The position numbers were made by a program, and so were the translations under genes. This document shows positions 6,367 to 10,189 of a stretch of DNA of 11,997 bases, piece by piece. The notes under the pieces were generated by a model. That model worked only from the letters and a program-made list of their open reading frames with translations, searched no databases and was not told the origin of the DNA. Origin of the DNA: an uncultured Micavibrio sp. Lineage in GTDB: Bacteria > Pseudomonadota > Alphaproteobacteria > Micavibrionales > UBA1664. The stretch covers positions 1-11,997 of the forward strand of contig CAJXOI010000007.1 in assembly GCA_913057885.1 (NCBI GenBank), written 5' to 3'. Within the stretch, counting starts at the first letter, position 1. Every line of letters starts with the position of its first letter.

Positions 6367-9243
6367 ATGACTGACTATAACGCTGACTTTTACAAGGATA
6401 CTGTCTTTTTACCCAAAACCGATTTCCCCATGCGGGGCGGCCTGCCGCAAAAAGAGCCGGAGATTTTGGCCAAATGGAATGATATAAAACTCTTTGATAA
6501 ATTGCGTGCGCAATCATCTGATCTGCCGCGGTGGACGCTGCATGACGGTCCGCCCTATGCCAACGGGAATATCCATATTGGCCATGCGGTCAATAAAATT
6601 CTGAAGGACATCACCAATAAATCAAAACAGATGCAGGGATATAACGCGCATTATGTCCCCGGGTGGGATTGCCATGGTTTGCCGATTGAATGGAAGATCG
6701 AGGAACAATACCGCGCCAAGGGATTGGATAAGGACACCGTGGATGTTATCGAATTCCGCAAGGAATGCCGCGATTTCGCCCAACATTGGGTTGATGTTCA
6801 ATCCCAAGAATTTCAACGGCTTGGTGTGATTGGTGATTGGGAAAAACCCTATTTGACCATGACGCATAAAGCCGAAAGCATTATTTCATCCGAAATTCAT
6901 AAATTTGTGATGAATGGCGGGCTGTATCGTGGGGTGAAAACGGTGATGTGGTCCCCCGTTGAGGAAACGGCATTGGCCGAGGCCGAAGTGGAATATAAGG
7001 AGCATAAATCCGTCACTGTTTGGGTCCGTTTCCCTGTTGTTGAAACTTCGTGCGAGGAATTAAAAGGCGCTGATTGTGTCATTTGGACCACAACACCATG
7101 GACATTGCCATCCAACCGCGCCATGGCCGTGAATAAAGATTTGGATTATGGTGTTTTTGAAGTCTCTACTATAGATGGTGATTTGGAAAGAATGAGTGTG
7201 AAAATAGGCGATAAGCTTGTTTTTGCAAAAAATCGATTGGAAGAGATCAAACAAAAAACTGGAGTACATTATTTTCGTGAGTTAGCCACATTGAAAGGCT
7301 CCGACATAGTTGGAACAATTTGCGCACACCCGTTGGCGGAGCAGGGATACGACCATAAAGTGCCTATCCTCGCCGCGCCGTATGTGACCGATGATGCGGG
7401 GACAGGGATTGTCCATATCGCCGCGGCGCATGGTGAGGAAGACTATGACCTTGTCATGGCCTATAACGCCGATAAGGATGACGCCGATAAAATTGAAATT
7501 ACCGATAACGTTGCGGATGACGGGACATTTCGTGATCATGTGCCTTTATTTGGCGGTATGGCGATTATTGATAAGGATGGTAAATTTTCTGACGGGAACT
7601 TTGCCCCGCTCAGTGCGATGAAAGACGCGGGAAAATTATTGGCCAAAGGGTCGCAACGCCACGATTATCCGCATAGCTGGCGGTCAAAGGCGCCGATCAT
7701 TTACCGTGCCATTCCGCAATGGTTTATTTCCATGAAAACAAATGATCTTCGCGATAAGGCGTTGAAGGCGATATCTGATACAAGATGGGTTCCTGCGCGT
7801 GGTGAAAATCGTATTCGGTCGATGGTTGAAAACCGCCCGGATTGGAATATTTCCCGCCAACGCGCATGGGGCGTGCCGATTGCCATTTTTGTAAAAAAGG
7901 GAACAGATGATATTTTGCGTGACGAGGCCGTGAATAAACGCATTGCCGATATCTTTGCGACTGAGGGATGCGATGCATGGTGGTCACGCCCCGCGTCCGA
8001 TTTCTTGGGCGATGATTATAATGCTGATGATTTTGACCAGATTTTTGACATCGTCGATGTGTGGTTTGAAAGTGGATCAACGCACAGCTTCGTTTTGGAA
8101 AATGGCGATTGGGGTATCCCGTCGCCTGCGGATTTATACCTTGAGGGCTCCGACCAGCATCGTGGATGGTTCCATTCTTCATTATTGGAAAGTTGCGGAA
8201 CACGGGGATATGCCCCTTACAAGGCGGTTTTGACGCACGGGTTTACGTTGGATAAGGACGGGATGAAAATGTCGAAATCCATCGGCAATACGATTGCTCC
8301 GCAAGATATTATCGACCAATTTGGGGCGGATATTTTGCGCCTGTGGATGGTCACATGCGATTACGAAAATGATCACCGCATTGGTGATGAAATCCTCAAG
8401 GGGACGTCGGACATGTATCGCCGTATCCGTAATACATTCCGGTTTCTTCTTGGTGCATTGGATGGCTATACACAATCCGAAGCGGTGGACTTGAAGGATG
8501 TTTCCAAATTGCCAGAGTTGGAACAATTGGTTCTCCATCAACTGTATGAAATGAATGCGAAAATTCAAACCGCGATTGAAGATTATGATTACGACACGAT
8601 GGCAAAATCACTTTATGATTTTTGCAACCAAAACTTGTCGGCCTTTTATTTCGATATTCGCAAAGACCGCCTCTATTGCGATCGCCCTGATCTGTTTGAA
8701 CGCCGTGCTTGCCGTACGGTGATGGCGGAAATTTATAAATGTCTGGTCACTTGGCTGGCACCGATTTTGTCCTTTACGTGTGAAGAGGCATGGAGCCACC
8801 GTCCCGAAGGCGTGTTTGGTGACGAAGACTCTGTTCATTTGCGTCAATTCCCGAATGTGCCAGAGGCGTGGAAAAACGATAGCTTGGCTGGAAAATGGTT
8901 TGGTGTGCGTGATATCCGTGAAAAGGTGTTGGCCGTGATTGAACCCAAACGCGCGGATAAAACAATCGGGTCTTCCCTCGAGGTTCATCCCATTATTACT
9001 TTACCGTCCAAAATGGCAGAAGAACTCTCTGACATTGATTGGGCAGAGGTTTGCATCACATCCCAAGCCACTGTAAAAACAGGGAATGACATCACGGTTG
9101 AATTTACAAAGGCCGAGGGAAATAAGTGCGAACGATGTTGGAAAATTTTGCCCGAGGTTGGAACGGACAATGAATTTCCGAATTTAACCCCGCGTGATGC
9201 CGACGCCGTGCGGTGGTATTTGCAACAACGAAAGGCGGCCTAA
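6367..9243 (+). CDS. ileS: Isoleucyl-tRNA synthetase IleS
   Basis: This class I aminoacyl-tRNA synthetase charges tRNA-Ile in the cytoplasm. At 958 residues it has full bacterial length. The Rossmann domain holds PPYANGNIHIGH with HIGH at 70-73, GWDCHGLPIEWKI soon after, and KMSKS at 634-638. The CP1 editing domain, which removes Val-tRNA-Ile, contains the Thr-rich IWTTTPWTLPSN at 239-250 and GTGIVHIAAAHGEEDY at 345-360; the Pro and Gly usual in VH.APGHG are Ala here, while the editing Asp359 position is kept. The anticodon-binding region follows KMSKS. The C terminus carries KCERCW (Cys921, Cys924), but the second zinc pair expected at 941 and 944 is Thr and Asp (LTPRD). Bases 7141-7320 are about 35 % GC with unusual codons. 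It heads the ileS-lspA-DUF3035-M16 series. Confidence 0.98.
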   Translation: MTDYNADFYKDTVFLPKTDFPMRGGLPQKEPEILAKWNDIKLFDKLRAQSSDLPRWTLHDGPPYANGNIHIGHAVNKILKDITNKSKQMQGYNAHYVPGWDCHGLPIEWKIEEQYRAKGLDKDTVDVIEFRKECRDFAQHWVDVQSQEFQRLGVIGDWEKPYLTMTHKAESIISSEIHKFVMNGGLYRGVKTVMWSPVEETALAEAEVEYKEHKSVTVWVRFPVVETSCEELKGADCVIWTTTPWTLPSNRAMAVNKDLDYGVFEVSTIDGDLERMSVKIGDKLVFAKNRLEEIKQKTGVHYFRELATLKGSDIVGTICAHPLAEQGYDHKVPILAAPYVTDDAGTGIVHIAAAHGEEDYDLVMAYNADKDDADKIEITDNVADDGTFRDHVPLFGGMAIIDKDGKFSDGNFAPLSAMKDAGKLLAKGSQRHDYPHSWRSKAPIIYRAIPQWFISMKTNDLRDKALKAISDTRWVPARGENRIRSMVENRPDWNISRQRAWGVPIAIFVKKGTDDILRDEAVNKRIADIFATEGCDAWWSRPASDFLGDDYNADDFDQIFDIVDVWFESGSTHSFVLENGDWGIPSPADLYLEGSDQHRGWFHSSLLESCGTRGYAPYKAVLTHGFTLDKDGMKMSKSIGNTIAPQDIIDQFGADILRLWMVTCDYENDHRIGDEILKGTSDMYRRIRNTFRFLLGALDGYTQSEAVDLKDVSKLPELEQLVLHQLYEMNAKIQTAIEDYDYDTMAKSLYDFCNQNLSAFYFDIRKDRLYCDRPDLFERRACRTVMAEIYKCLVTWLAPILSFTCEEAWSHRPEGVFGDEDSVHLRQFPNVPEAWKNDSLAGKWFGVRDIREKVLAVIEPKRADKTIGSSLEVHPIITLPSKMAEELSDIDWAEVCITSQATVKTGNDITVEFTKAEGNKCERCWKILPEVGTDNEFPNLTPRDADAVRWYLQQRKAA

Positions 9244-9260: not shown

Positions 9261-9289
9261 GTCATTCCCCGACTTGTTCGGGGAATCTT
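9261..9289 (+). repeat. Left copy of 29-bp palindromic inverted repeat
   Basis: This 29-base element is the exact reverse complement of 9601-9629. Its core (9264-9286) is itself a palindrome, with arms ATTCCCCGA and TCGGGGAAT around a 5-base loop CTTGT. It lies 17 bases after the ileS stop and ends 13 bases before the GIY-YIG start. Similar CCCCG-type palindromes are scattered as REP-like elements in many alphaproteobacterial genomes (from memory, not checked). A 9-bp GC-rich stem could also act as an RNA hairpin at the ileS 3' end, but no proper T-run follows. Confidence 0.9.
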
Positions 9290-9302
9290 CTAGGCTTTTA
9301 AT

Positions 9303-9593
9303 ATGAATAAACAATATTGGGTTTATATGTTAGCCAGCACAAAAGATGGCGCGATATATATTGGTGTTACATCTGATTTAATAAAACGTATCTACCAACA
9401 TAGAAACTCAAATACCAAGGGGCATACATCGAAATATAATATTCGACGATTGGTTTATTTCTTAGAATTCACTGATCCTGAAAATGCAATTAAGCATGAA
9501 AAAAGGTTGAAGAAATATAATCGTCAATGGAAGATAAATTTGATAGAAGAACATAACCCTAAATGGAGAGATTTATGGGACGATATTACATAA
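9303..9593 (+). CDS. Small GIY-YIG nuclease superfamily protein
   Basis: This 96-residue protein is a single GIY-YIG domain of the short, UvrC-N-terminus-like type (YhbQ/UPF0213-like group). YWVYMLAS (5-12) holds the GIY-equivalent VYM, GAIYIGVTSD (16-25) holds YIG, and LIKRIYQHR supplies the conserved Arg29. AIKHEKRLKKYNRQWK (62-77) contains the Glu66 expected to bind the catalytic metal, and IEEHNPKWRDLW is the typical end. Full-length members are 80-100 residues, so the gene looks intact. Family members cleave DNA, but cellular roles of these small stand-alone versions are poorly defined. No Shine-Dalgarno precedes the ATG; expression would depend on read-through from ileS. Codons are AT-rich (ATA, AGA, AAA) compared with ileS and lspA, consistent with a separate origin. 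It is framed by inverted palindromes 13 and 7 bases away. Confidence 0.9.
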   Translation: MNKQYWVYMLASTKDGAIYIGVTSDLIKRIYQHRNSNTKGHTSKYNIRRLVYFLEFTDPENAIKHEKRLKKYNRQWKINLIEEHNPKWRDLWDDIT

Positions 9594-9600
9594 CAGCAAC

Positions 9601-9629
9601 AAGATTCCCCGAACAAGTCGGGGAATGAC
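9601..9629 (-). repeat. Right copy of 29-bp palindromic inverted repeat
   Basis: This is the exact reverse complement of 9261-9289. It begins 7 bases after the GIY-YIG stop and ends 20 bases before the lspA ATG. The core 9604-9626 has the same 9-bp arms. On the transcript it could form its own hairpin, or pair with the left copy to loop out the nuclease gene. Confidence 0.9.
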
Positions 9630-9649: not shown

Positions 9650-10189
9650 ATGAATCGTTTACCCCAGCTCCTTGGCTTTGGCTTTATCTTTGATATTGTC
9701 ATGATTGACCAATTAACGAAATGGTGGATTACCGAGACCTATTTGCGCCCATTGACGGGGAAAAATTCTGTTGGTCTTGTCGATTGGGTTATGAATGCGC
9801 CCGAGCGTATTACATCAGGTGTGTCCGTCAATGTTTTGCCCAATTTTAACCTGACGATGGTCTGGAATCCCGGGGTATCATTTGGATTGTTACAAAATGC
9901 CGGTGTTTGGCCATTGGTGGCTTTGACAGTTGGTTTATGCATTTTTTTAGCATGGTGGTTGGTTAAATCAGAATCTATCATGGAAGGGTTGGCGTTAGGC
10001 GCCATCATTGGCGGCGCGATAGGAAATTTGATAGATCGGTTCCGTTTTGGTGCGGTGGCAGATTTTTTTGATGTTGATTTAGGCTTTTACCGATGGCCGG
10101 CCTTTAACATTGCGGACAGCGCGATTGTTATTGGGGTTGCTTTGTTATTGCTTCATGGTTTATTTTGGGACAAGAAGGATAAGACATGA
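9650..10189 (+). CDS. lspA: Lipoprotein signal peptidase II LspA
   Basis: LspA is an inner-membrane aspartyl peptidase that cuts prolipoproteins just before the lipidated cysteine. The 179-residue protein has four hydrophobic segments, at about 8-26, 85-105, 112-126 and 151-171. Family motifs are DQLTKW at 20-25, WNPGVSFGL at 72-80, GNLIDRFRFGAVADFFD at 125-141 with catalytic Asp129, and FNIADSAIVIG at 152-162 with catalytic Asp156. The loop between DQLTK and NPGVSF is about 49 residues, longer than the roughly 30 I recall for E. coli LspA, so the periplasmic part is enlarged. AGGA at 9638-9641 lies 8 bases before the ATG. The stop overlaps the start of the following lipoprotein gene (ATGA), so they are translationally coupled. 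Confidence 0.97.
   Translation: MNRLPQLLGFGFIFDIVMIDQLTKWWITETYLRPLTGKNSVGLVDWVMNAPERITSGVSVNVLPNFNLTMVWNPGVSFGLLQNAGVWPLVALTVGLCIFLAWWLVKSESIMEGLALGAIIGGAIGNLIDRFRFGAVADFFDVDLGFYRWPAFNIADSAIVIGVALLLLHGLFWDKKDKT

Follow-up and report, generated by a model that had tools for sequence, protein, structure and literature searches.

A GIY-YIG nuclease as the probable partner enzyme of CGTC-tagged REP palindromes in Micavibrio and other bacteria

Introduction

In the window (the whole stretch of 11,997 nt that was analysed, from an uncultured Micavibrio sp.), a small gene encoding a GIY-YIG nuclease lies between two inverted palindromes, and this unit is located between two genes that we take to be ileS (6367-9243, plus strand) and lspA (9650-10189, plus strand), names that were assigned by reading the translations and from homology to the genes of relatives. 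Why should a lone nuclease gene be bracketed by palindromes, and how did it reach this site? The initial annotation had proposed a self-contained mobile cassette, analogous in logic to the REP-associated transposases and with a different enzyme.

Palindromes of this appearance have been described. According to Di Nocera, De Gregorio and Rocco (2013; PMC3733652), CGTC-tagged REPs are apparently without a dedicated transposase; they include the neisserial dRS3 and the rickettsial RPE-4 and RPE-6, Micavibrio aeruginosavorus is named as a host, and their possible mobilisation by other transposases was raised. The criteria given there are a C or T before an unpaired GTC at one end only (a TGTC variant exists), a stem of 8-9 bp starting with complementary AT, a loop of 4-5 nt, a tail that is CCA in most members, not in all, and a multicopy occurrence, mostly as inverted dimers (PMC3733652).

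Results and Discussion

Anatomy of the unit and its insertion between ileS and lspA

The left end of the unit (9261-9289, plus strand) is a REP hairpin with an unpaired GTC tag, a 9-bp stem that starts with AT, a 5-nt loop and a CTT tail that faces the gene. A 13-bp spacer (9290-9302) leads to the ATG start codon of the nuclease gene (9303-9593, plus strand), which encodes a single-domain protein of 96 aa, and a 7-bp spacer (9594-9600) separates its stop codon from the right REP (9601-9629, minus strand), an exact inverted copy of the left one with the GTC tag away from the gene; the tags point outward and the tails point towards the nuclease gene. Both spacers are as the initial annotation had given them, and its description of the 29-base ends as exact reverse complements, each a palindrome with 9-bp arms, was confirmed by the repeat listing and by folding. 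The two 29-nt arms are 100% complementary and constitute the longest fully complementary inverted repeat in the window listing, and each of them folds as ssDNA into a hairpin whose stem is 9 bp and whose loop is 5 nt, with three bases left unpaired at either end (fold energies of -9.1 and -9.5 kcal/mol; none of 200 shuffles was equally stable). The calculated number of perfect 29-bp pairs within 1 kb of each other that chance would produce in 12 kb is about 4e-11. No promoter-like site was found, and an Rfam search gave a single match with a score below gathering.

The earlier reading of these ends as REP-like is supported, and they fit the CGTC class in stem, loop and tag: they share with it the GTC tag, a 9-bp stem starting with ATT, a 5-nt loop, a short tail and the arrangement as an inverted pair. 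The GTC is unpaired and present at one end of each arm; it is preceded by T on the right arm, which corresponds to the TGTC variant, and by G on the left. The tail, CTT, differs from the CCA that is commonest in the main text of PMC3733652, where CCA is not a required feature. The REPs of the window also bracket a nuclease gene, whereas the term GIY does not occur in that main text. The REPs are at low copy in the window's own genome (11 pattern matches); 253 kb of this genome together with loci L003 and L004 hold 10 tagged hairpins, against one in the reversed control, and CTT tails occur in the window pair, in a dimer of L003 and in a single REP of L004. Of the 29-mer, which the initial annotation had proposed to search for, the 23-nt core (at most two mismatches) was detected at no more than two other positions of the own genome, whose assembly is incomplete. 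REPs of the wider class without a gene are common, which is what a non-autonomous system would predict.

The end of ileS (9243) and the start of lspA (9650) are separated by 406 bp. We looked for lspA in 12 relatives and located it in 11. In six of these 11 the stop codon of ileS and the start codon of lspA lie -1 to 6 bp apart (G002, 4 bp; G003, 4; G006, 0; G007, -1; G053, 6; G046, 6), so that the claim of a normally tight junction was borne out and the same six genomes provide the empty sites that the initial annotation had thought worth looking for. In G005 ileS is located further upstream of lspA, and in G004, G008, G009 and G026 the normal end of ileS was not found in the stretch examined upstream of lspA. 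G003 belongs to the same genus and carries four relatives of the nuclease at other loci; its ileS-lspA junction is empty. Because ileS and lspA abut in 6 of 11 relatives, the window unit is identified, by sequence comparison, as an insertion into this junction.

The nuclease

The window ORF matched PF01541 (E 1.6e-14; 54.4 bits, cut-off 22.6), which was the sole profile match for the only gene of the unit, and the protein does not qualify as a HUH tyrosine transposase. It has no family assigned in NCBIfam, and neither the profile search nor the structure model (pLDDT 93) revealed a separate DNA-binding domain. The catalytic residues of GIY-YIG enzymes are two Tyr, an Arg, a His, a Glu and an Asn. 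Residues Y8, Y19, R29, H33, E66 and N85 of the window protein are invariant across 22 sequences, and in a 33-sequence alignment R29, H33, E66, N85 and Y19 are invariant and Y8 is conserved in at least 90%. From its domain and these conserved residues the protein can be placed in the GIY-YIG nuclease superfamily. The closest solved structures by sequence, which are also among the best by fold, are the UPF0213 proteins BH0048 (1zg2) and EF2693 (1ywl), both of them labelled hypothetical in the PDB, and the fold is similar to that of the structure-selective nuclease Slx1 (of Slx1-Slx4). Existing records call such genes only 'putative endonuclease' or 'GIY-YIG nuclease family protein'.

The gene has a patchy distribution: it is present in 32 of 55 members of the order and in 73 of 241 genomes of the class. 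Stops interrupt 6 of the 78 nuclease matches among the order relatives. Copies within one genome are mostly 36-57% alike (six pairs reach 61-83%), which indicates that recent self-duplication is rare. Carriage by phages was also considered and found no support, since neither a viral-contig scan, which detects only close relatives, nor the phage records at E 1e-5 gave a relative of the nuclease.

These properties bear on the proposal that the protein has been domesticated by the host to trim or resolve REP hairpins, for genome upkeep or RNA control, and does not mobilise them. Old and divergent copies and a fold close to that of Slx1 are in keeping with such a role, but the patchy occurrence, the stops, the existence of empty sites and the fact that the nuclease gene is itself bounded by REPs are not, and we regard the proposal as quite improbable.

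The nuclease-REP pairing recurs in many kinds of bacteria

The recurrence of the arrangement was analysed in the best 80 of 539 GTDB relatives, picked by protein similarity only. Inverted repeats with a score of at least 14 flank 53 of the 79 GTDB copies for which flanking DNA was present, compared with 8 of 858 other ORFs at the same loci. The tagged-hairpin test covered 158 of 160 loci (78 of the 80 from GTDB): a tagged hairpin lies within about 160 bp on at least one side of 68 of the 78 GTDB copies and of 69 of 803 other ORFs at the same loci, and on both sides of 44 of the 78 copies and of 4 of the 803 other ORFs. These same-locus controls rule out that a REP-rich neighbourhood accounts for the pattern. 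By record titles, the hosts of REP-flanked copies include Alpha-, Beta-, Gamma- and Deltaproteobacteria and Nitrospira, and further Omnitrophota, Chloroflexi, candidate phyla and Bacteroidetes. Inverted REP pairs around GIY-YIG genes, a point on which the initial annotation had turned, thus recur in many kinds of bacteria. Its notion of a REPtron-like logic with a different enzyme is supported; the window unit is not a special cassette, and represents one case of a general nuclease-REP pairing.

The control ORFs also bear on the simplest view, in which a resident gene happens to be flanked by palindromes that are ordinary terminators or arose by chance. One terminator-like match does overlap the right arm, on the minus strand. 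The perfect 29-bp inverted repeat, the lack of the REP-flank pattern around control ORFs and the insertion into a tight junction exclude this view for practical purposes, and its probability is negligible.

Within 350 bp, a hairpin was observed at 69 of 78 GTDB copies, at 47 of the 70 copies of the relatives set (70 of 78 matches, with 8 short or weak ones left out) and at 9 of 10 plasmid copies (taken from 33 matched records); the latter include copies from Azospirillum, Sinorhizobium, Sphingobium, Novosphingobium and a Neisseria gonorrhoeae record. The tenth plasmid copy, from Planktothrix, has imperfect GTCATTCTGAG-type repeats, recognised by eye. At the remaining 23 of the 70 copies in the relatives set the strict detector recorded no hairpin; among these are copies with bulged REPs, which it misses (L023, L030, L060 and L070). 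The nuclease gene at locus L045 (G040) is surrounded, over most of the 300 bp on each side, by imperfect inverted repeats that consist of alternating REPs. A C-terminal tail like SGFPDQVGE is found in 25 of the 120 homologues listed and, by codon reading, may represent an ORF that runs into a REP.

The pairing is restricted to one GIY-YIG subfamily

With the same detector, a tagged hairpin within about 400 bp was found at none of 26 UvrC-length GIY-YIG loci and at none of 14 other PF01541 loci, of which 14 and 10, respectively, lie in genomes with at least 12 REP-pattern matches. These counts rule out REP flanking as a property of all GIY-YIG proteins. Since the background is low (a tagged hairpin in 86 of 1000 random 1030-bp windows from stretches of two REP-rich genomes, G046 and G053), the zeros show only that UvrC-length and other PF01541 loci do not exceed background. 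L228, which appeared in the same control listing, belongs to the REP-linked subfamily and has REPs. The second GIY-YIG match of the window's own genome (L006; 28% identity) has no tagged hairpin nearby.

REP type follows the nuclease, and REP load follows the gene

The two REPs of a copy resemble each other, with a mean similarity of 0.88 against 0.57 for random pairing (64 two-sided copies, 20 of them with identical REPs). REP types were mapped onto a nuclease tree of 115 sequences and 96 columns, in which 63 of 112 inner branches are unresolved; 103 and 98 of the 115 sequences were used for the loop and the tail, respectively, mixed or 'other' labels being left out. The loop type requires 17 changes on this tree (shuffle mean 23.5, minimum 18) and the tail type 10 (mean 16.4, minimum 13), and in neither case were any of 500 shuffles as low. 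Shared host ancestry may account for part of this agreement.

REP load was counted with the pattern GTCATNCCN{8,16}GGNATC, in tests that ignore phylogeny. In the order, in a set that includes the window's own genome, the median is 26 REP matches in 32 gene-bearing genomes and 2 in 23 without the gene (p 2.9e-7; rank correlation 0.77). In the class, for which 238 of 241 genomes were used and the own and same-order genomes were left out, the medians are 15 in 72 genomes with the gene and 3 in 166 without it (p 1.2e-13 per Mb), and at least 10 matches per Mb are reached by 23 of the 72 and 6 of the 166. The contrast becomes weaker after subtraction, because the REPs that flank the gene itself inflate the counts: with two matches per copy subtracted, p is 7e-6 in the order and 1.4e-6 in the class (20 of 72 against 6 of 166 at 10 per Mb), and with four, which is right only if there is a dimer on each side and over-corrects for single REPs, p is 7e-5 in the order and 0.02 in the class (18 against 6 at 10 per Mb).

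Exceptions exist in both directions. A count below 2 matches per Mb was obtained for 15 of the 72 gene-bearing class genomes, and one of 5 per Mb or more for 14 of the 166 without the gene. In 10 of these 14 the PF01541 hits are only UvrC-length, and the short hits of G120, G155, G208 and G253 are without a REP-like flank; one hairpin near a PF01541 fragment of G208 is unlike a REP. Such genomes could have lost the enzyme after the REPs had spread. They are also what would be expected if gene and REPs were the passive cargo of an unknown transposase that acts in trans on REPs, and movement of CGTC REPs by other transposases was raised in the 2013 work (main text of PMC3733652). A nuclease subfamily that is the same in many kinds of bacteria, with the GIY-YIG paralogues spared, is hardly a passenger, and we consider this alternative very improbable.

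Empty and altered sites

Sites without the unit were also found for other copies. Two Micavibrio-like loci, L038 (469 bp) and L069 (424 bp), are absent at the matching sites of a sister genome, where there is no REP. In Azospirillum lipoferum, sufB and sufC are separated by a nuclease gene that has a REP dimer on each side, and the sufB-sufC site is without the gene in A. ramasamyi, A. oryzae, strain B510 and A. thermophilum. L022 is a REP-gene-REP unit in G046, and the site in G053 carries a REP dimer plus a half-REP-like remnant; two other copies of the nuclease are common to both genomes. When six Sphingobium plasmids were aligned, the unit was present in three, a single double-tagged palindrome in two (L198 and L199) and neither in one. 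The double-tagged palindrome is a possible scar, which either a deletion between direct repeats of the stem or an excision would give. A similar palindrome, with a CCTC tag at one end and a GTC tag at the other, occupies the Sinorhizobium K101 site (L197), where sister records have the unit, and may likewise be a scar. In S. meliloti Ak57 (L189) a full unit is directly preceded by a shortened one, which retains the two REPs and, of the gene, only the 3′ end; this internally deleted copy may be a non-autonomous derivative in the making. Base-precise junctions or a target duplication could not be read in the Micavibrio-like, Sinorhizobium, Sphingobium or Azospirillum comparisons, in which the flanks differ by about 5-10%.

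Some of these sites are relevant to the alternative that the gene is a homing endonuclease gene which invaded REP dimers already in place, so that the REPs would be its target and not its ends. GIY-YIG homing endonucleases are known (I-TevI type, free-standing). Some copies do lie between two complete REP dimers (L038 and L194), the nearest REPs have their tags inward in 12 of 158 copies, and the L022 site can be read as a dimer with (G046) and without (G053) a gene. However, at the four compared sites (the window, L038, L069 and L194) no CGTC-type REP was seen by eye in the empty relatives, so that REPs and gene look to have arrived together, which weakens the homing alternative. The type of the flanking REPs follows the nuclease tree, and the window nuclease, unlike the free-standing enzymes of the I-TevI type, is a single 96-aa domain in which no separate DNA-binding domain was found, from a family that is bounded by inverted palindromes and occurs at several different insertion sites. 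On balance homing is unlikely.

Gene-less dimers and a model for REP mobilisation

In 400 kb of G046 and G053 we detected 34 tagged hairpins (6 in the reversed control), whose tails are CTT in 10 and CCA in 14. They include 10 close pairs, and in all ten the tags point outward and the spacers are 20-28 bp, an arrangement that matches the ends of the nuclease unit. Copies of the nuclease gene in one genome are rarely close in sequence, and REPs and dimers without the gene are more numerous, so that the gene-less dimers are probably the main mobile product.

The combined evidence makes it probable that the window unit is a mobile REP-nuclease element, with the GIY-YIG nuclease as the dedicated partner enzyme of CGTC REPs and the two inverted REPs as its ends. 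Our best reading is that of a REPtron-like element in which this nuclease serves CGTC REPs instead of a RAYT; its mode of cleavage, its insertion chemistry and its exact ends we infer. As outlined in PMC3733652, REPtrons (GTAG REPs plus a RAYT) also consist of one enzyme gene bracketed by REPs, are patchily distributed, and are accompanied by gene-less REPs and dimers elsewhere, likewise as here. The enzyme of the REPtrons is a HUH tyrosine transposase of the IS200/IS605 group and the tag is GTAG, whereas here the enzyme is a GIY-YIG nuclease and the tag is GTC.

In the model that we propose, the nuclease would recognise the REP in its hairpin or cruciform form, in the way that branched DNA is recognised by Slx1, which has a related fold, and would cut at or near the GTC tag. 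The segment released in this way might be the complete unit, and would more often be a REP dimer that has the same geometry and no gene; it would then be re-inserted or copied by host repair or replication. REP dimers would be the usual cargo, and the nuclease gene itself would move rarely. The need for these host functions would follow from the chemistry of GIY-YIG enzymes, which hydrolyse DNA without a covalent intermediate.

The nuclease family and the repeats were each already known separately; no connection between GIY-YIG genes and REPs was found among the papers listed by searches of open PMC text, judged from listings and the starts of abstracts, and a term search of PMC5082802 did not return GIY. 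A REP-bracketed nuclease subfamily that is tied to REP load is a strong candidate for the enzyme that moves these widespread repeats, and makes the missing-transposase question of 2013 testable with one 96-aa protein. If the model is correct, genes named 'putative endonuclease' or 'GIY-YIG nuclease family protein' would be the counterpart of RAYT, and repeats would spread without known transposase chemistry. If the nuclease alone is the mover, the element would be of a new class. We suggest, tentatively, the wider form of this claim, in which a lone hydrolytic GIY-YIG nuclease, unaided by any DDE, HUH, tyrosine or serine recombinase, would spread palindromes via host repair, and in which its non-autonomous products would comprise the entire CGTC REP superfamily across many phyla, the neisserial dRS3 and the rickettsial elements among them.

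Two further loci show REPs or related repeats in the company of other genes. In a Planktothrix agardhii plasmid (L196) the nuclease gene has an MmeI-type restriction gene on one side and drmA, a DISARM gene, on the other, and repeats of the GTCATTCTGAG type surround it. At positions 624-693 of L003 (G000, contig C125), the CTT-tailed REP dimer is located in frame inside an ORF, presumably phosphotransferase-like from reading and adjoined by a murA-like ORF, to which it adds about 24 residues; rickettsial palindromic elements likewise insert in frame inside ORFs.
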